Assembly (NCBI RefSeq): GCF_039655865.1
Contig: NZ_JBBYXL010000010.1
Coordinates: forward strand, 186,001-250,000
Direction: 5' to 3'
DNA length: 64,000 nucleotides
Source of the DNA: Prosthecobacter sp. SYSU 5D2
GTDB lineage: Bacteria > Verrucomicrobiota > Verrucomicrobiia > Verrucomicrobiales > Verrucomicrobiaceae
Every line of letters begins with the position of its first letter. The first letter of the stretch is position 1. Positions 1 through 9,898 of this stretch are shown in pieces. The notes under the pieces were generated by a model. It was not told the origin of the DNA. It was given only the letters and a program-made list of their open reading frames with translations, and ran no database searches. The position numbers and the translations under genes are program-made.

Positions 1-1060
1 AGCCGTTGGGAGCCAGCTCAGTGGACCACTTGGCGGACTGCTGGGCGGCACCCCAGGTGCCCAGCAGGGCGATCCCGGCCAGGGTTGCACCGATGAGGAG
101 GTTCTTGCCGATGGTGAGCTGGCTTTCGCGGGTGATGCTGTTGGCGGCCTGGGCACGCTGCAGATAGCGGCGCACGGGCAGCAGGTAACCCCAGACCACA
201 ACGGCAAAACCGACGACGGTAATCACGACCGCCATAAGGGAAGTCACGCCGGCCTCGATGCCCATGGGCGACCAGGACCAGATGATGCCGAGTGCGACGA
301 CGGCACCAATGAGCACGCCTTTAAGATCGGGGGTGCTCCAGAAGGAAGTCTTGCCAGCGGCTTTTTCATCCTCCCATTTGTCAGACTCGGGCACAAAGAT
401 CCGGATGAGGAAGATGATGCCAGCAGGCAGGGCACCGATGATCATGAGGAAGCGCCAGGCCTGGTTTTTCAAAAGATAGCCAGCCATAGATTCAGAGCCG
501 CCCATGGCCAGGATCCATTCGCGCATGGTATCAATGAAGGTGTTCATGCCGAGGCTGAGCGCGGCGACGAGGAGGTAGCCGAAGTTGGCCGCTGCACCGA
601 TGGCCCCGGCCACCAGAGCGCGGTTGCCTTTGGTCCAGAGTTCATTCACCAGGGCCACTCCCAAGGCCCACTCGCCGCCCATGCCGAGGGAGGCGATGAA
701 GCGCAGGATGGCCACGTGCCAGGCCTCGGTGGCGAAGCCGCACAGACCGGTGAAGATGGCATAGGTGAAGATGGAAAGGGACATGGCCTTGACGCGGCCG
801 ATGCGGTCGCCGAGCCAGCCAAAGAAGACGCCGCCAGTGGCTGCGCCAACGAGGAAGGTGGCAATGATGACGCTGAACCAGCGGTCCAGATGGCCGGACA
901 TGGCCTCCGGTGCGACGGTGGAAGCCAGCAGGTCCTGAAGCGCGGGTTTGCCGATCAGCGGAAACAGCCCCATCTCGAATCCGTCAAACATCCAGCCTAA
1001 AAAGGCGGCAATGAGTGCCATGTTGCGACCGGTGGAGGAGGGAGCTTTGGGAGAAGACAT
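1..1060 (-). CDS. MFS transporter (C-terminus cut by window edge)
   Basis: A proton- or solute-driven major facilitator superfamily permease of the inner membrane. Translating the minus strand from the ATG at 1060 gives about 353 residues without a stop, so the gene runs off the left edge. The N-terminus has a first membrane segment (ALIAAFLGWMFDGFEMG) with the Asp expected in metabolite:H+ symporters. The loop between helices 2 and 3 carries the MFS signature GWLGDRIGRVKAM at about residues 84-96. Further hydrophobic segments follow, then a cytoplasmic loop rich in charged residues (ESDKWEDEKAAG). The substrate cannot be read from the sequence; aromatic or organic acid and sugar symporters share these motifs. 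No operon partner is visible, since the CLC gene lies about 130 bases upstream in the same direction. Confidence 0.85.
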   Translation of the reverse strand, partial: MSSPKAPSSTGRNMALIAAFLGWMFDGFEMGLFPLIGKPALQDLLASTVAPEAMSGHLDRWFSVIIATFLVGAATGGVFFGWLGDRIGRVKAMSLSIFTYAIFTGLCGFATEAWHVAILRFIASLGMGGEWALGVALVNELWTKGNRALVAGAIGAAANFGYLLVAALSLGMNTFIDTMREWILAMGGSESMAGYLLKNQAWRFLMIIGALPAGIIFLIRIFVPESDKWEDEKAAGKTSFWSTPDLKGVLIGAVVALGIIWSWSPMGIEAGVTSLMAVVITVVGFAVVVWGYLLPVRRYLQRAQAANSITRESQLTIGKNLLIGATLAGIALLGTWGAAQQSAKWSTELAPNG

Positions 1061-1194
1061 GTGGCGTGGATCGGGAGAATGACTGAAAAACCGCAAAAGC
1101 GGTTAAAAAGAACGCAACCAGAAGGGACATTCTTCAAGGAGATGCAACGGCCTGGGAAGAACAAAATGCGATTTGTTTGTGACGCCGAAGAGGA

Positions 1195-2568
1195 TCAGGG
1201 ATCGCCTTTAGGTTCGGCAGGCTTTTCCTGAGGGGGCGGTTTGGGGGTGCGCAGGTCCCTGAGAGTCGCACCCGGTGGCAGCAATACGCGGCCATATTTG
1301 GAAACGGCCACGCGCTGGGCCAGGTAGATGCCGGTGTGGCCGCTGCACAGGTAGGCGATGAAACAGGCCACGGCGATGTACACGCCGTTGGCTGCGCCGA
1401 AGAGCTCGATGCCCATGATGGTGCAGGCCAGCGGGGTGTTGGTGGCTCCGGCAAAGATGGCGACAAAACCCAGGGCGGCGAAGAGGTCCAACGGAGCGCC
1501 GAGGAGTCCGGCGAGGGCATTGCCCAAAGCACCGCCGATGAAGAAAAGAGGTGTCACCTCCCCGCCTTTAAAACCTGCGCTTAATGTCACCACCGTGAAG
1601 ACCAGCTTCCACCACCAGGCGGTGGGATGCACCTCCTGGGTGGTGAAGAGGGAGGCGATAGTGACATGCTCAGGATCTGGCGAGGTGACGCCAAGGCCGA
1701 GATACTGGGTGGTGCCCAGGGCATAGACGAGGCCGATGACGAGCACTCCACCAATGGCAGGCCGCAATGGTGCATAAGGGCAGATTTTTTTATAGCCTGC
1801 CGAGGCGGCATGAGACAGTTCGGAGAACAGATAACTGGCCATGCCAAAAGCCACCGCCGCCAGGGCCACCTTGGCCAGCATCACTGCCTCCAGGTGGAAG
1901 AAGTGTGTGGGCACCATGCCATCACTCATGTAGCCCACATTGTAAAGCGTGTGGCCCACACCCCAGGCGTGGCAGGTCCAGTCGCCAATCATGGCGGAGG
2001 CCAGGCAGGCAGTGAGGGCATCATAACGCATCTGGCCGATGGCGAGCACCTCCAGGGCAAAGACGGCTCCGGCCAGCGGTGTGCCAAACACCGCGCCAAA
2101 ACCTGCGGCGATGCCGCCCATGAGAAGGATGCGCACGGCGTGTGCCTCCAGCCGGAAAAGCCGCGCCACACTGCTGGCGATGCTTCCGCCCATTTGCACG
2201 GCAGTGCCCTCTCGTCCAGCGGAGCCACCGAAGAGATGGGTGATGACGGTGCTGATGAGGATGAGCGGGGCCATCCGCTTCGGCACGCCGCAGCCCGGCT
2301 GGTGGATCTCCTCCATGATGAGGTTGTTGCCGCCTTCCGCCGGCTTGCCAAACCAGTGATAAGCATACCCCACGACGACGCCGGCGACGGGCAGCAGGAA
2401 AAGCAGCCAGGGATTGGCAAAGCGGGTCTCCGTCGCCCGGTCCAGGCTCCATAAAAAAAGAGCGCAGGCGGAGCCCACCGCCACGGCCATGGGCCCGATG
2501 ACGGCCAGCCACTTCAGTCCTGCCCAGGCCTGCTGGAGGAGCTCTTGGAGGTAGTGGCGGGGTGACAT
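1195..2568 (-). CDS. CLC-family anion transporter, possibly the fluoride type
   Basis: A 457-residue CLC membrane protein moving a halide, probably by exchange with protons. The pore motifs are visible in altered form: GCGVP (about residue 94, versus GSGIP), GREGT (about 119, versus GREGP, with the gating Glu kept) and GGEVTP (versus GKFSP). GREGT and GGEVTP, with no obvious pore tyrosine near the C-terminus, are the variants I associate with fluoride-exporting CLC-F proteins; that is recollection, not a search result. The protein ends in a Pro/Lys-rich tail. The ATG at 2568 lies 28 bases after the stop of the small gene downstream of bklc, so it could be the distal gene of the tubulin operon. 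No fluoride riboswitch was recognised upstream. Confidence 0.85.
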
Positions 2569-2596
2569 TCCGGGCGGCTGCTTTTCGCCGCCATGC

Positions 2597-2833
2597 CTAC
2601 GCTTCGTTTTCCAGATAGTCCAGCGCCTTGGTCAGGCTGGACTGGGTGAGGAAGTGGTTCAGCCGGGCGGGCAGCTGCGGCTTCAGGCGGGTGTGCTCGG
2701 CGGCCAGGGCTTCAGAGACGCGTTGCAGTTCAGCCAGGTGGGCGGCCGGGTCGCGATCACGAAAGGCGTGGTCGGCGATGGTCTCCAGCCGCTGGCGGAG
2801 GAGAATCTGGAGGGTGGAAAATTTTGGATTCAC
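2597..2833 (-). CDS. small helical protein coupled to bklc
   Basis: A 78-residue protein of unknown function. It starts at a GTG whose bases overlap the TGA stop of bklc (GTGA), an arrangement typical of translational coupling. It is predicted by eye to be almost entirely helical and charged ([36 protein letters not shown]), with no signal peptide or membrane segment, so it should be cytoplasmic. It could be an additional component of the bacterial tubulin system or an unrelated passenger. I do not recognise a family. Its position, phase and coding-like composition make it a plausible real gene, but the evidence is contextual. Confidence 0.6.
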
Positions 2834-3600
2834 AACGATTTGTCCATGAGCAGAGAGGCGGCGCGCCGCGGCTGCGGGTGGTAGCCATTCATGCCGGCAC
2901 GGATCTTCTTAGCATGTTCCACACAGGTTTCCGCTTTTTGAAAATCTCCAGAGGCTTTGTACACGGCACTGAGGTTGATGTAGGTTTGGGAAAGGTCGGC
3001 TTGGTCGGTGGCATCATTGGCCAGATTCTGCCGGATGCTGAGCGCATGTTCATGCATCTTCTGAGCATTCTCCACATCCAAGTTGGTATAATAAAGCACG
3101 CCGAGGTTGTTATAGACGCTGGCCACACGGGCGCTGTGGCTGCCGTCGGAGAGCAGAAAGAGGTCAAGCGCCTCGTTGTAATACTGCTCAGCCTTGGCGT
3201 AGTCGCGCAACTGCTTGAAGATCATGGCCAGATTGTTCTTGATCGTGGCCACTTTGTCACTGTCGGCGACTCCCCCTCGCACGGCCACATCGAGCGCCTT
3301 TTGATAGTGCTCCGCAGCCTGGTCCATGCGGCCCCAGCGGTCATAAAGATGGGCGATGAGGGACAGGATGCCCGTCAGCAGCTCCGCGTCCGGCTTGCGT
3401 GGCTCCAGGGCGCGTTGCAGCGCCTCACGGTAAAGAGATTCCGCCTTCCGAAAGTCCCCCTCCTTTTGGCGCAGGTCCGCCAGCACGCTGATCTGCTCCA
3501 CAAGCAGGCCGATGCGCGTTGCATCGCGGTAGGCCGCGCGCCGCGCCTCCTCGACGCTGCGGGAGGCGGCGGCAATCAGGCGCTCCAGGTTGGGGTCCAC
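2830..3600 (-). CDS. bklc: Bacterial kinesin light chain-like TPR protein (Bklc/BtubC)
   Basis: A 256-residue protein made almost wholly of TPR repeats, at about residues 31-64, 74-107, 116-149, 158-191 and 203-236. The middle three have the roughly 42-residue spacing and NNLAxIF/NNLGVLY/INLSAVY cores of kinesin-light-chain type TPRs. In Prosthecobacter this gene follows btubB, and its product (also called BtubC) has been reported to bind BtubA/B microtubules. There is no signal peptide, so it acts in the cytoplasm. The start chosen is a GTG at 3600, 32 bases after the btubB stop; the frame stays open a little upstream, so a slightly earlier start is possible. The stop overlaps the start of the next small gene. 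Family identity and operon order agree. Confidence 0.9.
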   Translation of the reverse strand: MDPNLERLIAAASRSVEEARRAAYRDATRIGLLVEQISVLADLRQKEGDFRKAESLYREALQRALEPRKPDAELLTGILSLIAHLYDRWGRMDQAAEHYQKALDVAVRGGVADSDKVATIKNNLAMIFKQLRDYAKAEQYYNEALDLFLLSDGSHSARVASVYNNLGVLYYTNLDVENAQKMHEHALSIRQNLANDATDQADLSQTYINLSAVYKASGDFQKAETCVEHAKKIRAGMNGYHPQPRRAASLLMDKSL

Positions 3601-3632
3601 AAAAGTGAAGTTGGTTAGGCCGCAGTTAGAGG

Positions 3633-4913
3633 TCAGCTCGCGTCGCGGTAGGACTGGGCCAGGTTGGCGATCTGATTGCGGGCCTCGGCCATCATGTCAC
3701 GGGACACGCCTGCATTTTCATACCAGTGCGTGTAGGCATGGTTGTCAAACATGATGTCAAACTGGGAGATGAGCCTCTCAAAGACAGCGGCGATGCCGGT
3801 GTGGTTGACCAGGGCCAGACCGCTGGAGGCAAACCCTTCCGGGGCGGTCTCCGCATAGCCCAGCTTCAGCCCGCCGGAGGCCGGCATGTAACTGGCATAG
3901 TTCAGCGACTTGCGGATGCTGGCCATGTTTTCATCCACATCCTTGGCCTTCACATCCCCGCGAAAGAGTGCGCTGGCGGCCAGGTAAACTCCCTGCTGCC
4001 AGTCAATGGCGGCGGTGAAATTGTCCTGCGAAAAAGTCTCGCGGGCGAGTTCGGGAAAATTCGTCCGCACCTGGCCTTCCTGGCCCAGGTTGCGCATCGG
4101 CGCAAAGCTGGCGGTCAGGAAATGGTTGCCGGGGAAGGGGACCAGATTGGTCACAAACTCGCTCAGGTCCGTGTTCAGCTTCCCGGGAAAACGCAGGGAA
4201 GCCGTCACCGAGCTGACGATGAGCGCGATGATGTTGTTGAGGTCCATGTAATTCGGGCTGCGGTTCAGCTTGGACTTGGCGATGCGGAACAGCGCCTCGT
4301 TATCCAGCAGCACCGCGCCATCCGCATGGTCAAGAATGCGCTGAAGGGTCAGGATGGCATTGTAGGGCTCCACGGCGGAATCCGAGATGAGCGGTGAAGG
4401 CACCACGGAGAAGGTGAAGATGCGCTTCTTCGGGTAGGCCTGCCGCAGACGCTCCAGGATGAGCGAGCCGAGGCCAGAGCCGGAGCCGCCGCCGATGGAG
4501 TGCGTCATCAGAAAACCCTGCAGGCCTTTGGTTTTTTCCACGGCGCTGTCAATGACGTTCATGATCTGGTCAATGACCCGGTCTCCCTCCACATGGTAAC
4601 CGCGCGCCCAGTTGTTGGCCGCGCCCGGGATCTTGCGGACGATGCTGCTTTCATCAAAAAGCTGGGACATGTCTCCGCCCTCAATACGGGCGATGACGCC
4701 CGGCTCCAGGTCCACCAGGACGGCGCGGGGGACGTATTTGCCATCCCGCACCTTGTGGAAGAAAACCTCCATGTTGCTGTTGGCGGCGGCATTGCTGCCT
4801 TCCTTGAGGGTGCCTGCCTCGGTGAGGCCGTGCTCGCGCAGGGCAAGCCTCCAAAAGCTGTCTGCAATCTGGTTGCCGCACTGTCCGACGTGAATGCTCA
4901 GGATCTCTCTCAC
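3633..4913 (-). CDS. btubB: Bacterial tubulin BtubB
   Basis: A 426-residue tubulin that pairs with BtubA to build bacterial microtubules in the cytoplasm. The N-terminus has the tubulin T1 region (HVGQCGNQIA). The nucleotide-binding T4 loop is GGGSGSG at residues 141-147, where eukaryotic tubulins normally have GGGTGSG. The T7 region reads LSEFVTNLVPFPGNHF, close to alpha-tubulin and with a Glu in the position that can activate the partner's GTPase. The length matches known BtubB. The start is a GTG preceded by GGAGGA at good distance. The gap from btubA is 61 bases and bklc follows after 32 bases, so the three are cotranscribed. There is no long acidic tail as in eukaryotic tubulins. It is far closer to eukaryotic tubulin than to FtsZ. 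Confidence 0.97.
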   Translation of the reverse strand: MREILSIHVGQCGNQIADSFWRLALREHGLTEAGTLKEGSNAAANSNMEVFFHKVRDGKYVPRAVLVDLEPGVIARIEGGDMSQLFDESSIVRKIPGAANNWARGYHVEGDRVIDQIMNVIDSAVEKTKGLQGFLMTHSIGGGSGSGLGSLILERLRQAYPKKRIFTFSVVPSPLISDSAVEPYNAILTLQRILDHADGAVLLDNEALFRIAKSKLNRSPNYMDLNNIIALIVSSVTASLRFPGKLNTDLSEFVTNLVPFPGNHFLTASFAPMRNLGQEGQVRTNFPELARETFSQDNFTAAIDWQQGVYLAASALFRGDVKAKDVDENMASIRKSLNYASYMPASGGLKLGYAETAPEGFASSGLALVNHTGIAAVFERLISQFDIMFDNHAYTHWYENAGVSRDMMAEARNQIANLAQSYRDAS

Positions 4914-4974
4914 TGTTTGTCCTCCGGGATGGTTCTTGGAATCATTTAGCTTTTAAGCGGGTGCAGGTGGAAAA

Positions 4975-6387
4975 TCAGCGGCGGCGGTCCACCAGGTCGC
5001 GCAGGCTCATGGAGCTGCGGGGATCCTCCATGCTGCTGGAGCGGGCGACGGTCTCGCCCGCAGTGTCCTGCACCTTCGCCTTGGCACCGCTTTCCTCAGC
5101 CACCTGGTAGCTCTGGATGAGCTCTTGGGCGGAGGCGCGCAGCCCGTTGATCTGCTCCTCGGTCATCCCTTCATTGAGGTACCAGTTGGCGAAGGCCTTG
5201 CGCTGCCAGAGCTTGTCAAAGTTGTGGCAGATGCGGTCCAGCACCCGGGCGATCTCGGTGTTGTTGGCCAGCAGCACCATGCTCTTGCGGTGGGAGGTGC
5301 CGGGCTGCTCCACGTATCCGATTTTAAAAGCGGTGGGAATCCAATACGTGAGCGGCAGCTTCTCCCGCATCGCGGCCAGCGCGGCATCCGCCTGCGGCTT
5401 GTCCTCCATGATGCCGCGATAAAGCACGGCCGTGCTCAGGAAGCGCCCTTCCATCGGCGAGCAGGCGGCAAAGACGGACCCATTGTCAAAGAGGGACTTG
5501 ATCATCTCCTCAATGCCCATTTCCTCGAACTTGCTGCGGTCGGGCGGCGTCAGCGGGGCAAAGGCGCACATGAGGAAATGCAGGGAGGGCTGCGGGACGA
5601 GATTGGTCAGCAGCTCGCGCAGGCTGATCTCCACCGTCAGAAAGCCGCTGAAGCGCATGGAGGCGGTGATGCCCGCCAGGGCCTCCGTGATGAGCAGGTT
5701 CAGGTCATCCACCGTGGGGCTTTCGATGTTCCACTTGCGGTGCGCCAGTTCAAAGAGCGCCTCATTGTCAAAGATCAGGCAGGCATCGGCCGCACGGCGC
5801 AGCGTGTTCATGGCAAAGACCGTATTGTAAGGCTCCGTCACCACCGAGGAAACCTGTGGGGACGGCAGCACGGCGCAGCTCAGCACGGGGAATTCGGGAT
5901 ACTTGTCCTTCAGCGTTTCAATGAGCAGACAGCCCAGGCCGGAGCCGGAGCCGCCGCCGATGGCATGCAGCACGATGATGCCGCCGACGTTGTCACAGCG
6001 GTCGATCTCATAATCCAGCCGGCCCATGACCTCCGGCAGCACCTCACGCCCCGCACCCATGTAACCGACGGCGAAGTTGCCCCCCGCCCCTTCGGTGCGG
6101 GAAATGAGGCTGGCGGGATTAAACAGGGAGCCGCTGGTGGCCTTCACATGTTCGATGACGCTTGGCTCCAGATCCACCATGATGGCGCGCGGCACATAGC
6201 TGCCGGAAGAAGACTCCCCAAGCTTGGAGAAAAACGAACTCCAGTTCCCCAGTGGTGCTGCGCCTGCAGCACACTGTCCGGTGAGCGGATCAATCCCGTG
6301 CTCCTGGCAGACCGTCTTCCAGAACGAAGAAGCGATTTGGTTGCCGGCCTGGCCGATCGAAACGACGATTGTGTTATTGACCTTCAT
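4975..6387 (-). CDS. btubA: Bacterial tubulin BtubA
   Basis: A 470-residue tubulin, the first gene of the btub operon. The T1 region is SIGQAGNQIAS at about residues 10-20 and the T4 loop GGGSGSG at 144-150. The T7-like segment is RELLTNLVPQPSLHF, also with a Glu. The C-terminal 40 residues are Ser/Arg-rich and charged (EDPRSSMSLRDLVDRRR), extending beyond the core fold. BtubA and BtubB form the heterodimer; each is known to carry mixed alpha- and beta-like features and to fold without eukaryotic chaperones. The start is an ATG with no clear Shine-Dalgarno in front, unlike btubB. A perfect 8-bp inverted repeat lies 42-72 bases upstream. The gene was probably acquired from a eukaryote-like tubulin lineage, which is inference from family knowledge. 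Confidence 0.97.
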   Translation of the reverse strand: MKVNNTIVVSIGQAGNQIASSFWKTVCQEHGIDPLTGQCAAGAAPLGNWSSFFSKLGESSSGSYVPRAIMVDLEPSVIEHVKATSGSLFNPASLISRTEGAGGNFAVGYMGAGREVLPEVMGRLDYEIDRCDNVGGIIVLHAIGGGSGSGLGCLLIETLKDKYPEFPVLSCAVLPSPQVSSVVTEPYNTVFAMNTLRRAADACLIFDNEALFELAHRKWNIESPTVDDLNLLITEALAGITASMRFSGFLTVEISLRELLTNLVPQPSLHFLMCAFAPLTPPDRSKFEEMGIEEMIKSLFDNGSVFAACSPMEGRFLSTAVLYRGIMEDKPQADAALAAMREKLPLTYWIPTAFKIGYVEQPGTSHRKSMVLLANNTEIARVLDRICHNFDKLWQRKAFANWYLNEGMTEEQINGLRASAQELIQSYQVAEESGAKAKVQDTAGETVARSSSMEDPRSSMSLRDLVDRRR

Positions 6388-6428
6388 TCAGTTGACGGGT
6401 GACTCTAGTTTCAAGCCTTCATCTCAGC

Positions 6429-6459
6429 TTTGAGAATATTTGCAGCGGTTGTTCTCAAA
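6429..6459. promoter_or_regulatory. Inverted repeat upstream of btubA (candidate operator or leader hairpin)
   Basis: TTTGAGAA and TTCTCAAA form a perfect 8-bp inverted repeat separated by 15 bases, 42 bases upstream of the btubA ATG and 230 bases from kdsA on the other strand. The two arms are two helical turns apart, which would suit a dimeric regulator; it could equally form a hairpin in the btub leader. The rest of the 302-base gap between btubA and kdsA has a weaker CCAAT/ATTGG pair at 6495-6510 and an AT-rich stretch at 6500-6530. No convincing -35/-10 pair was found. Confidence 0.35.
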
Positions 6460-6689
6460 ATTGGCGGCTCATGGGCTTGTTAGCAGGAATGATCCCAATT
6501 TTCAGATTGGTTTGAAAAAAGTGTAAAGTTACAAGCCGATGCGCTTTTTCCTGAGGTGCAGCGGCCGAGGCATGAAGAGCCGCATCGGCATGCAGTATCC
6601 TTGCACTTGCCTGTTGTCAGGACGGAGTCGGCTCGCTATCCTGCAAGTCGCAAGGTGGCACCCCGCCCACCTTCATTTTTTTCGTTCTC

Positions 6690-7520
6690 ATGCTCCCTCT
6701 CCCCGTTGTCAAGGTGGGTTCCGTGCCAGTGGATGGCACGCAGCCTTTGTTCATTCTCGGTCCCTGCGTCATCGAGAGCGAGGCCTTTATCTGGGAGGTG
6801 GCGGAGCGGCTGGGGGCCATTGCCAACAGCCTGCGGCTGAAGTGGGTCTTCAAAGCCTCCTATGACAAGGCCAACCGCAGCGCCATCAGCTCTTATCGCG
6901 GCCTGGGCGTGAAGGACGGCTGCCGGATTCTGGAGCAGATCGGCCAGAAACTGGGCGTGCCGGTGACCACGGATGTGCACTCCCCGGAGGAGGCCAAAAT
7001 CGCCGCAGAGCACGTAGACCTGCTGCAGATCCCGGCTTTTCTATGCCGCCAGACGGACCTCATCCTCACGGCCGGGGAGACCGGCCGGGCCGTTAATGTG
7101 AAGAAGGGCCAGTTCATGGCTCCGTGGGATGTCAAAAACATCGCCGAAAAACTGGCCAGCACCGGCTGCGAAAACTTTCTTTTTACTGAACGCGGAACGA
7201 CCTTTGGTTATCAAAACCTGGTAACGGATATGAGGTCGCTATACTGGATGCGGGAGCTGGGCTATCGGGTCATTTTTGACGCGACCCACTCGGTTCAACG
7301 GCCAGGCGGCCTGGGAACGACCACCGGCGGAGATGGCAAACTGGCCCCCGTGCTGGCACGGGCCGCCGTTGCGGCAGGATGTGACGGTGTGTTTATGGAG
7401 ACGCATCCCAATCCGGCGGAGGCCCTCTCTGACGGCCCTAACCAGGTGCCCATGTCAGACATCGCCCAGGTGGTGGAGAAATTGCGGCGTATTCACAGTC
7501 TTGTGACGGAGGATTCTTAA
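6690..7520 (+). CDS. kdsA: 3-deoxy-8-phosphooctulonate (KDO-8-P) synthase
   Basis: Condenses phosphoenolpyruvate with arabinose 5-phosphate to give KDO 8-phosphate, the first committed step to the KDO of the LPS inner core. The 276-residue cytoplasmic TIM barrel shows the family motifs GPCVIES (residues 24-30), KASYDKANRSA (55-65), VTTDVHS, DATHSVQ and METHPNP. The Cys in GPCVIES replaces the Asn of the E. coli enzyme and marks the metal-dependent class. The ATG at 6690 starts a full-length protein. The lptC-like gene begins one base after its stop, so kdsA heads an LPS synthesis and export operon. Confidence 0.95.
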   Translation: MLPLPVVKVGSVPVDGTQPLFILGPCVIESEAFIWEVAERLGAIANSLRLKWVFKASYDKANRSAISSYRGLGVKDGCRILEQIGQKLGVPVTTDVHSPEEAKIAAEHVDLLQIPAFLCRQTDLILTAGETGRAVNVKKGQFMAPWDVKNIAEKLASTGCENFLFTERGTTFGYQNLVTDMRSLYWMRELGYRVIFDATHSVQRPGGLGTTTGGDGKLAPVLARAAVAAGCDGVFMETHPNPAEALSDGPNQVPMSDIAQVVEKLRRIHSLVTEDS

Positions 7521-7521
7521 C

Positions 7522-8040
7522 ATGCGGCGGGTCAACACGCAGACATTTTACAGAGCCGGTCTTTCCCTGGGCATGCTGGCCCTGGCAGCCGTGGCGCTGG
7601 CCCAGACGGTGGCAGAGCCGGAGGAGGCCAAAGGCATGAACGCCTTTGGCAAAATGATCCCCCTGGGTTTCGTGAACAAGAACGTGGTGGTGCCTTCCTT
7701 TAAAGACGGCAAGCCTTCTTCCCTGCTCACGGCGGATACCCTGACCCGGCTGGATGAGGAGCTCCTTTCCGCTGTCAATGTGGTGGTGGAGGTTTATGCA
7801 GAAGATCCTGCGGCGACGCTGCGCGTGGATTTGAAAAGCGCGGTTTATAACATGCCGGACCAGATCATGCGCAGCGGTGAGCGCAGCCGCGTCAGCCGGG
7901 CCGATTTTGAAATGGAGGGTGACAGCATGGTGTTTGATACGGCCCATTCCATCGGCAGCATGAAAGGCCGTGTGCGAACATTGATCTTTGACATGAACCC
8001 TGCTCCGGGCAAAGCGGAGGGCAACCCAACCAACGAATGA
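7522..8040 (+). CDS. Probable LptC-like LPS export protein
   Basis: A 172-residue exported or membrane-anchored protein with an N-terminal hydrophobic segment (AGLSLGMLALAAVALAQ, about residues 12-28). The body contains alternating stretches such as LRVDLKSAVYNMPDQIMRS and SRADFEMEGDSMVFDTAHSIGSMKGRVRTLIFD, which read like the repeated beta strands of the LptC/LptA bridge. It lies between kdsA and an OstA/LptA-domain gene, with which its stop overlaps (ATGA), and lptB follows. The assignment rests mainly on this context, because the sequence is divergent; it may be an unnamed verrucomicrobial LPS-assembly protein that fills the LptC position. Confidence 0.55.
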   Translation: MRRVNTQTFYRAGLSLGMLALAAVALAQTVAEPEEAKGMNAFGKMIPLGFVNKNVVVPSFKDGKPSSLLTADTLTRLDEELLSAVNVVVEVYAEDPAATLRVDLKSAVYNMPDQIMRSGERSRVSRADFEMEGDSMVFDTAHSIGSMKGRVRTLIFDMNPAPGKAEGNPTNE

Positions 8041-9017
8041 CTATGAGAACGCTCGCCACCCTTGCCCTGCTCCTTGCCGGCATGATTCTGTCCGCCAGCG
8101 GGCAGGGTGCTTCACGCCCCGGCACACCAGCCGTGAGCGATGAGAAAAAACAGATCAGTGAAGCGGCTGAAAAACTGCGCCAGGCCCAGGCCAGCGGTGA
8201 GCTGGACAAGGCTAAAGCCACAGCCAAAGGCCTGATGGGAAACCTGCCCGGCAACCTGACCGATGCGGCGAAGGCCGCCATGCAATCCCCTGAAGTGAAA
8301 GCCCAGGCCGCAGCCGCCGCCAAATCGCTGCTGCCTGAGGCGCAAAAGATGCTGGATGCCCGCAGGCAGGCTGCAGAGGGCGCACCCCCTGCTGCTGCCG
8401 CAGGCACGACTGCTGCTGGAGACCAGCCACCGGCCCCGGAAGGCCCCAAGCCACAACTGCTGCAACCCATTGCCGATAGCCCGCCCACGGCTCCGGCGGC
8501 CCCGGGGTCAGCACCGGCCCGCAAACCCATGGTCGTGATCGAGGCGGACAACTCCGTCTTTGATCCCAATACCAACATCCTCATCTACACGGGCAGCGTG
8601 CGCGCCCGCCACCCGCAGTTTTACATCGAGTGTGAAGAGCTGGTCGTCCACCTGGAGGAGGAGAACGGGAAAAAGGAAACCAAGCCAGATCTCTCCAAAA
8701 AAGATCCGCTCCTGGCCGCGCCCAAGAAAAAAGGCCCGCAGGAGGAGGAAAACAACATGGTCAAAAAAGCCATCGCCTCCGGCCCCATGGTGCGCATCGA
8801 AAAGAAGGATCCTGAAGGCAAGGCGCAGCGTGCCTTCTGCCGCAATGCCGTCTATGACGGGGCCACGGGTCTCATCACCATGCGTGACAATCCCCAGGTG
8901 CAGACGGATAACGTGATGCAGACCTCCATCAGCCCGGACACCGTCATGACCTTTGACAAAAACGGCAAATTCAGTTCCAACCGCCCGACCCGCACCGTCA
9001 TCCTGTCCCAGGAATAA
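8037..9017 (+). CDS. LptA/OstA-domain LPS transport protein
   Basis: A 326-residue periplasmic protein. Residues 1-22 form a signal peptide (TLALLLAGMILSASGQG). Residues 25-150 are a low-complexity Ala/Pro/Gln-rich and helical linker. The OstA-type domain occupies about 165-320, beginning VVIEADNSVFDPNTNILIYTGSVRARHPQFYIECEEL, where successive strands describe a beta-jellyroll, and ending near VMTFDKNGKFSSNRPTRTVI. LptA links the inner-membrane LptBFGC transporter to the outer-membrane LptD. The length is well above the roughly 185 residues of E. coli LptA because of the linker and an inserted Lys-rich loop (about 205-245). Overlap with the preceding gene and lptB downstream support the role. 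Confidence 0.72.
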   Translation: MTMRTLATLALLLAGMILSASGQGASRPGTPAVSDEKKQISEAAEKLRQAQASGELDKAKATAKGLMGNLPGNLTDAAKAAMQSPEVKAQAAAAAKSLLPEAQKMLDARRQAAEGAPPAAAAGTTAAGDQPPAPEGPKPQLLQPIADSPPTAPAAPGSAPARKPMVVIEADNSVFDPNTNILIYTGSVRARHPQFYIECEELVVHLEEENGKKETKPDLSKKDPLLAAPKKKGPQEEENNMVKKAIASGPMVRIEKKDPEGKAQRAFCRNAVYDGATGLITMRDNPQVQTDNVMQTSISPDTVMTFDKNGKFSSNRPTRTVILSQE

Positions 9018-9178
9018 ACCAGCCAGCCCCGCAGCCCCCATTCTACCTTTCCAACGGCATGTCAGCCACCCGTCCTAAAAACTCGCGCAATTCCCAGGAC
9101 TCCTCCCGCATCTGGGAGGGGACGCCGGATGCCTCTTCTGCCGGGATGACCTCCGCTGAGGACCGGGAAGAACGGAGC

Positions 9179-9898
9179 ATGCTGCTGCACACGGAAGGCC
9201 TGAAAAAGGTCTATGACGGCCGTGCCGTGGTCAACGGTGTGGACATCGAGGTGAAGGCCGGGGAGATCGTCGGACTCCTGGGACCGAACGGCGCAGGCAA
9301 GACCACCACGTTCTACATGATCGTCGGTCTGGTGCGCCCCAACGGGGGCAAGGTTATCTTTAATGGCAATGACGCCACTGAACAGCCAATGTTTAAACGC
9401 GCCCGCCTGGGCATGGGTTACCTGCCGCAGGAAGAGTCCATCTTCCGCCGGCTGACCGTGAAGGAGAACATCCTGGCCGTCATGGAAACCCAGAGCTACA
9501 CCAAAAAGGAGCGCGAGGAGCAGTGCCAGCAGCTCATGGAAAAATTTGGCATTGACCATGTGGCGGATAATCTGGCCCTCACCCTTTCCGGCGGTGAAAA
9601 ACGCCGCCTCACCATCGCCCGCAGCCTCGTCACAGAACCCAAACTCCTGATGCTGGATGAGCCTTTCAGCGGCGTGGACCCCATCGCCGTCAGCGAGATC
9701 CAGGACATCATCCGCATGCTCCGGCAGGCCGGTCTGGCCATTCTGATCACCGATCACAATGTACGCGAAACACTGAACATTGTGGACCGTGCTTATCTCA
9801 TTTTCGAAGGCCAGGTACGGCGGCATGGTAGCAAGGAATTCCTTGTCAACGATCCCGAAGCCCGCCGGCTTTATCTTGGCGAAGACTTCTCCATGTAG
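9179..9898 (+). CDS. lptB: LPS export ABC transporter ATP-binding protein LptB
   Basis: ATPase that powers LPS extraction from the inner membrane. From the ATG at 9179 the protein has 239 residues, the usual LptB length. Walker A is GPNGAGKT (35-42), the Q-loop Gln is near 84, the signature LSGGEKRR is at 136-143, and Walker B LLMLDEP is at 156-162, followed by SGVDPIAVSEIQ and the H-loop ITDHNVRETL; these last are LptB hallmarks. An in-frame ATG at 9059 would add 40 Ser/Arg-rich residues but has no ribosome site, whereas 9179 is preceded by GGAAGAACGGAG. LptF/G are not in the window. Confidence 0.92.
   Translation: MLLHTEGLKKVYDGRAVVNGVDIEVKAGEIVGLLGPNGAGKTTTFYMIVGLVRPNGGKVIFNGNDATEQPMFKRARLGMGYLPQEESIFRRLTVKENILAVMETQSYTKKEREEQCQQLMEKFGIDHVADNLALTLSGGEKRRLTIARSLVTEPKLLMLDEPFSGVDPIAVSEIQDIIRMLRQAGLAILITDHNVRETLNIVDRAYLIFEGQVRRHGSKEFLVNDPEARRLYLGEDFSM

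Follow-up and report, generated by a model that had tools for sequence, protein, structure and literature searches.

The stretch of DNA analysed here (64,000 nucleotides, hereafter the window; C10:186001-250000 of the 5.87-Mb, 99.98% complete genome of Prosthecobacter sp. SYSU 5D2) carries the genes of a bacterial tubulin system, btubA, btubB and bklc. The locus is the published btubA-btubB-bklc operon in one more Prosthecobacter species, and the system as such was already known. Comparison across the bacterial family suggests that its ancestral unit would have comprised four genes, P-btubA-btubB-bklc, and that P, a membrane protein, would be a membrane partner of the bacterial tubulins. We consider this combined reading likely.

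The btub operon of Prosthecobacter sp. SYSU 5D2

An earlier note, made from the sequence of the window, had named the three genes btubA, btubB and bklc and had described two tubulins with a GGGSGSG motif. The list of open reading frames and the Pfam searches agree with these three frames, which lie where the note had placed them (Table 1), and GGGSGSG is present in both BtubA and BtubB. The naming is fully supported by Pfam domains, by the best matches in the PDB and by relatives across the family. BtubA matched Tubulin (E 5.9e-52) and Tubulin_C (E 3.7e-22), BtubB matched the same two domains (E 5.8e-57 and 3.7e-19, respectively) and Bklc matched TPR_12 (E 1.3e-31). In phmmer searches, the best solved matches were 2bto for BtubA (E 8.3e-291), 7quq and 2btq for BtubB (E 9.3e-278 and 2.2e-277), and 5o01 for Bklc (E 1.7e-115). 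We take 2bto to be the entry of P. dejongeii and 5o01 to be that of P. vanneervenii. Behind the Btub entries, the next PDB matches of the two tubulins were Asgard and eukaryotic tubulins. Nothing met in the analysis spoke against the identity of the three genes.

Tubulins have a GTPase domain in common with FtsZ, TubZ and PhuZ, and the earlier note had named best matches to one of these three as the result that would speak against its assignment. The comparison with the PDB returned BtubA, BtubB and Bklc instead. Tubulin_C is present in both proteins, the NCBIfam ftsZ model reached 26 bits on BtubB against a cut-off of 295, and the genome has a separate ftsZ-type gene (C1:578071-578541, PF00091 132.8 bits). 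The proposal that both proteins are of FtsZ, TubZ or PhuZ type is refuted. The ftsZ-type gene itself scored 271 bits with the NCBIfam ftsZ model, just below the cut-off, as it did in the other 14 of the 15 genomes tested.

Amino-acid identity to the P. dejongeii genes is 92% for btubA, 97% for btubB and 84% for bklc, and the host is therefore another species within the same GTDB genus. BtubA of P. dejongeii (genome G017) matches 2bto at 100% identity, and Bklc of another genome (G059) matches 5o01 at 99.6%; the genes of the window correspond to neither. As judged by these sequences, the host belongs to Prosthecobacter and is neither P. dejongeii nor P. vanneervenii nor P. debontii. Two btub operons were found in one genome of the family (G014); in print, two are given for P. 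debontii in the accessible part of the source. The ratio of nonsynonymous to synonymous substitution rates (dN/dS) against P. dejongeii was 0.02 for btubB, 0.04 for btubA and 0.08 for bklc. The intergenic gaps are 61 bp (btubA/btubB) and 32 bp (btubB/bklc), all three genes are on the same strand and bklc follows directly downstream in the same direction. This spacing is consistent with an operon.

BtubAB assembly and Bklc binding are expected here because both are published for other species and because the proteins share 84-97% identity with those of P. dejongeii. BtubA and BtubB would assemble in a GTP-dependent manner into heterodimers and mini microtubules of few protofilaments; Bklc would bind the polymer and membrane lipid. 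In other species, BtubAB heterodimers form four- or five-protofilament tubes, which run along the membrane (PMC3232192, accessible portion). Bklc alone was found to bind the Btub polymer and lipid vesicles (PMC5372463, likewise in part).

Linkage and co-occurrence of protein P with btub

The gene for P is shared directly before btubA in many genomes of the family. P was counted at 657 bits or more, leaving out weaker paralogues at 558 bits or less, and was scored as next to btubA when on the same strand with its match end within 1 kb of btubA. Of the 39 genomes having both, 25 carry P immediately before btubA, that of P. vanneervenii being among them, and 25-345 bp separate the P stop from the btubA start in 20 of the 21 loci measured. 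P lies on another contig or elsewhere in 12 of the 39 (G000, which is the genome of the window, and G013, G014, G017, G018, G020, G032, G036, G037, G039, G040 and G041), and its position is cut by contig ends in two (G022 and G030). One common upstream context is shared by 30 loci (some genomes being counted twice); the window differs from it, as do the other loci in which bklc overlaps the small gene SM described below. The changing surroundings of the operon in cultured Prosthecobacter are late and local, a single upstream context being conserved in most of the family. The window's lineage would have separated its operon from P and retained P elsewhere, on contig C1.

Among the 68 genomes of the family, 39 have both P and btub, three btub only, five P only and 21 neither (P in 39 of 42 btub genomes versus 5 of the 26 others; Fisher p 5e-10, in a test that disregards kinship). 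Kinship enters through a tree of rpoB, which was usable in 58 genomes and not in the other ten. In its 10 independent pairs differing in btub, P differed in the same direction in 6.7 (mean), in the opposite direction in 0.2 and was equal in 3.1 (sign test, median p 0.031, range 0.008-0.22). Outside the family, the place immediately before btubA in genome G177 is occupied by a shorter P relative (E 1.6e-45 with a model built without G177, the best of 500 shuffles reaching about 0 bits).

Several observations weigh against P as a Btub partner. P occurs without intact btub in five genomes; decayed btub or bklc pieces are present in two of them (G015 and G043) and no trace was seen in the other three (G016, G029 and G054). 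Conversely, btub occurs without P in G001, G019 and G038, of which only G019 (Brevifollis, 99% complete) is firm. Adjacent genes can be lost by a single deletion, and the pairs test therefore overstates a functional link; the clearest co-loss of P and btub when unlinked is a single pair (G020 versus G044). The median p is modest, and its range extends into non-significant values. Since the gap between P and btubA is often 130-345 bp, P may also have a transcript of its own.

One could therefore suppose that the three-gene operon is the whole system and that P is an ordinary neighbour, kept beside it by shared descent and removed with it by joint deletion. The binding of polymer and lipid vesicles by Bklc alone (PMC5372463) would fit this, as would the unlinked P in 12 btub genomes, the five genomes with P and no intact btub, and the width of the p range. 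However, P was kept in those 12 btub genomes despite the lost linkage, and a P relative stands at the same place in a second family. We regard the ordinary-neighbour explanation as a serious possibility that we nevertheless doubt. For P and Btub, the comparisons taken together tip towards a functional link, unproven as it is.

As a side observation, the distance between P and the ftsZ-type gene is 9-16 kb in G000, G013, G014 and G018; the remaining 11 of the 15 genomes examined, P. dejongeii (G017) among them, do not show this proximity.

Predicted architecture of P

P is a membrane protein of about 730-870 amino acids across the upstream loci. Pfam gave weak kinase matches, two of three being below the cut-off. 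An AlphaFold2 model of residues 1-600 (predicted local distance difference test, pLDDT, 77.9) contains two kinase folds. In this predicted model, residues 4-246 align with PknB (Z 19.6, root-mean-square deviation 3.0, 221 residues aligned) and residues 286-551 with Aurora A (Z 17.2, root-mean-square deviation 3.3, 218 residues aligned; among 50 matches listed). Inspection of the alignment (A8) by eye revealed an invariant histidine (H47 and H320) at the position expected for the beta-3 lysine in both halves, and no DFG in the second half. Because of the histidine at the lysine position in both halves, P is called a probable pseudokinase, for which catalysis is doubtful.

The two cytoplasmic halves thus have the predicted fold of PknB-group Hanks-type kinases and of the Rv3910 kinase-homology domain. 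In contrast to these, P has two such domains in tandem, histidine in place of the beta-3 lysine and no DFG in the second domain. The kinase-fold region is followed by a conserved segment around ESxGSVSDF, one hydrophobic stretch and a proline-rich tail. The proposed layout would comprise two tandem kinase-fold domains in the cytoplasm, the conserved segment, a single membrane-spanning helix and, outside, a tail rich in proline. A role of P as tether or regulator of Btub filaments at the membrane is proposed, in which it would probably serve as a pseudokinase scaffold.

Distribution and decay of the btub genes

All 68 genomes of the family were scanned, and samples were used for the order (n = 386) and the phylum (n = 387). 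A btubB match was found in 43 of the 68 family genomes and in 7 of its 11 genera, Brevifollis gellanilyticus (L084) being among them. In the order sample, 48 genomes matched: the same 43, three genomes of family f3 (G100, G177 and G203), one of family f4 (G092) and G349. The four matching genomes of the phylum sample all belong to the family of the window. This distribution is wider than the earlier note had assumed in limiting such microtubules to Prosthecobacter and close relatives. Nor does the locus identify the organism, as claimed there; it points to the family instead, and 25 of the 68 family genomes have no btubB match. Further Verrucomicrobia sequences within the BtubA and BtubB clades are described in a 2026 paper (PMC13394414, in its accessible part).

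The tubulins of G349 (family f2; L176 and L177) were rejected as Btub relatives. They are alpha-tubulin-like and divided between two contigs, with a frame resembling an ion channel next to one of them, and were judged by eye to be probably eukaryotic contamination.

Decay of the operon was observed at several loci. In G043, btubB persists only as decayed pieces with stops, beside an intact-looking bklc frame (L048:5403-6682), and P is retained elsewhere in the genome. An in-frame TAG interrupts btubB of G055, and G022 and G034 have a split btubA. In G015, which has neither btubA nor btubB, a decayed bklc remnant (L106:5607-6107) lies directly before an intact SM; this remnant is evidently that of an operon lost in place.

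A third tubulin, BtubX, next to an XRE gene

The btub operon is expanded in two genomes of family f3. In G177, one contig carries the XRE gene, BtubX, the P relative and btubA in this order, and btubB and bklc stand at the end of another. In G100, of the same genus, the XRE gene and BtubX are followed by a broken P relative, a btubB truncated at its beginning and bklc, with no btubA found between them. HTH_3 was above its cut-off in the XRE protein of both genomes, encoded directly before BtubX. BtubX is 33% identical to BtubA, which is also its best PDB match. Its T4 loop is intact (GGGSGSG), and its T7 region lacks, as judged by eye, the acidic residues of BtubA and BtubB. Between G100 and G177, differences in the XRE gene and BtubX are mostly silent (proportion of nonsynonymous differences, pN, 0.23 and 0.19, versus synonymous, pS, 0.76 and 0.81).

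A related tubulin was found in 6 of the 13 genomes of family f4, where BtubA and BtubB were not found. An XRE-like N-terminus is in frame with this tubulin in G092 (above the Pfam cut-off), G086 (below it) and G077 (by alignment only). The frames in G083 and G101 lack it, and the one in G104 is truncated by its contig. The T4 loops are degenerate in some of these proteins. In total, XRE/BtubX-type tubulins occur in 8 of the 386 order genomes and in none of the 387 of the phylum sample.

In the TubR-TubZ plasmid partition system, a helix-turn-helix protein is also encoded next to a tubulin-family GTPase. Unlike TubZ, BtubX belongs with the BtubA-side tubulins, and plasmid records contained no match to BtubB or to the f4 XRE-tubulin fusion. 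No relative was confirmed in viral contigs.

Tubulin phylogeny

The earlier note had suggested a phylogeny with eukaryotic, Odinarchaeal and known Btub sequences. The tree is unrooted and has 26 rows, few of them from outside, so that no independent weight is placed on a root. It omits FtsZ, five f4 tubulin domains and BtubB of G100 and G203, and G349 serves in it solely as a eukaryotic row. A first tree including FtsZ and the divergent f4 proteins was dominated by long branches and was dropped. BtubA, BtubX and Loki AtubA were separated from BtubB, Loki AtubB, Heim-alpha and two eukaryotic rows with support 100/98. BtubX fell on the BtubA side (100/97), and its grouping with BtubB was rejected (p 7.6e-5).

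Like Btub, the Asgard proteins AtubA and AtubB are paired A and B tubulins, AtubA going with BtubA and AtubB with BtubB. In contrast, their identity to the proteins of the window is far below that found within Verrucomicrobia. A recent acquisition from a eukaryote might be suspected, the tubulins of the window being far nearer to eukaryotic tubulin than to FtsZ. Yet the best non-Btub matches are Asgard tubulins, and the unrooted tree groups BtubA with AtubA, and BtubB with AtubB and Heim-alpha. The same grouping was obtained with 477 sequences in PMC13394414, where BtubA and BtubB are traced back to the AtubA and AtubB of Asgard archaea. We consider a recent eukaryotic origin very unlikely.

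SM and the surroundings of the operon

The published Prosthecobacter operon (PDB 2bto, 2btq, 5o01 and 5o09) and that of the window agree in gene order, lengths and domains. The window differs in having a kdsA-type gene upstream and SM, followed by a ClC-type channel gene, downstream (Table 1).

Table 1. Coordinates of the genes and regions discussed (window positions unless a contig or locus is named; aa, amino acids)
Feature	Coordinates	Strand	Remarks
ClC-type channel gene	1195..2568	minus	PF00654 E 4.6e-66; 28 bp after SM
SM, small helical protein	2597..2833	minus	78 aa, GTG start; 4-bp overlap with the bklc stop
bklc	2830..3600	minus	256-aa TPR protein, GTG start
btubB	3633..4913	minus	426 aa, GTG start; alpha-like partner of the tubulin pair
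btubA	4975..6387	minus	470 aa, ATG start; beta-like partner of the tubulin pair
btubA/kdsA-type intergenic region	6388..6689		expected promoter site, divergent genes
3-deoxy-8-phosphooctulonate synthase gene (kdsA-type) and next frames	6690-9898	divergent from btubA	NCBIfam E 3.9e-114
P of the window's genome	G000:C1:593096-595735 (L309:1097-3736)	minus	879 aa; outside the window, unlinked from btub
XRE gene and BtubX	L172:12535-14546, L174:3473-5648		expanded btub operon, two f3 genomes
f4 tubulin-domain proteins	L178:6793-8727, L192:5622-7556, L195:6149-7933, L194:5887-7656, L193:1756-3534, L196:3-1097		about 590-644 aa

The strand of the operon and the small overlapping frame, SM (2833-2597), were absent from the earlier note. 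The SM family is in neither Pfam nor NCBIfam. AlphaFold2 predicts its fold with a pLDDT of 93.2, and none of 40 PDB matches of this fold reached E 0.001. The 4-bp overlap of SM with bklc occurs in 10 of the 44 bklc loci, as well as in G037 on split contigs. These loci keep the four genes together in at least six different upstream contexts, and SM is under strong purifying selection. All three observations could be taken to indicate that SM is coupled to bklc in translation and serves the Btub system as a dedicated fourth component. However, SM is single-copy in 67 of the 68 family genomes (E 5.4e-18 or better; G022 gave only E 0.24), irrespective of whether btub is present. It adjoins a dnaA-type gene (named by eye) in 17 genomes, all of other genera, and in G015 it is intact right behind a decayed bklc. 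A role as Btub component is improbable, and SM was rejected as a candidate on its spread through 67 of 68 genomes and its integrity behind the decayed bklc of G015. Being family-wide and intact after bklc decay, SM is most likely a passenger, coupled to bklc in one Prosthecobacter lineage.

The ClC-type gene is a neighbour outside the Btub system. A ClC match was found beside the btub genes in none of the 46 other large loci; the same count, 0 of 46, was obtained for kdsA. The frames behind the kdsA-type gene resemble, by eye, lipopolysaccharide-export genes. A promoter scan of positions 1000-7000 gave three matches against 1.3 expected, near chance, and a terminator scan gave numbers near the shuffled expectation; both were left unused. 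Neither a tRNA nor an Rfam family was found in the window.

Implications for the Btub system

The operon in print consists of three genes, and P and SM are unmentioned in the accessible parts of those sources. The literature searched, including PMC13394414 and PMC9871819, holds in its accessible parts neither XRE-BtubX nor P as a Btub partner; some key operon papers lie outside its coverage and may mention P.

A larger Btub system could be proposed. Ahead of the tubulins, its ancestral operon in the bacterial order would have carried the tandem pseudokinase P, a membrane protein holding the tubes to the membrane; in a sister family it would also have included XRE and BtubX, the latter with its GTP-binding T4 loop retained and the acidic residues gone from its T7 catalytic loop. 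XRE-BtubX would then be a tubulin bound to DNA and acting as a cap, seed or sensor of tubes or of unassembled tubulin, alone in f4 and sometimes as one polypeptide. We put this forward tentatively, as falling a little short of an even call. If it is true, the species of the window has an unlinked member of the Btub system on contig C1.

The role of bacterial microtubules is still puzzling more than 20 years after the discovery of their genes. The window alone adds one species to the known system, and the comparison adds two candidates, P and XRE-BtubX, which correct the view of the unit as always three genes. P offers a possible reason for the course of Btub tubes along the membrane, which is described in PMC3232192. 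With P and XRE-BtubX, the question of an unknown role becomes testable by binding and deletion.

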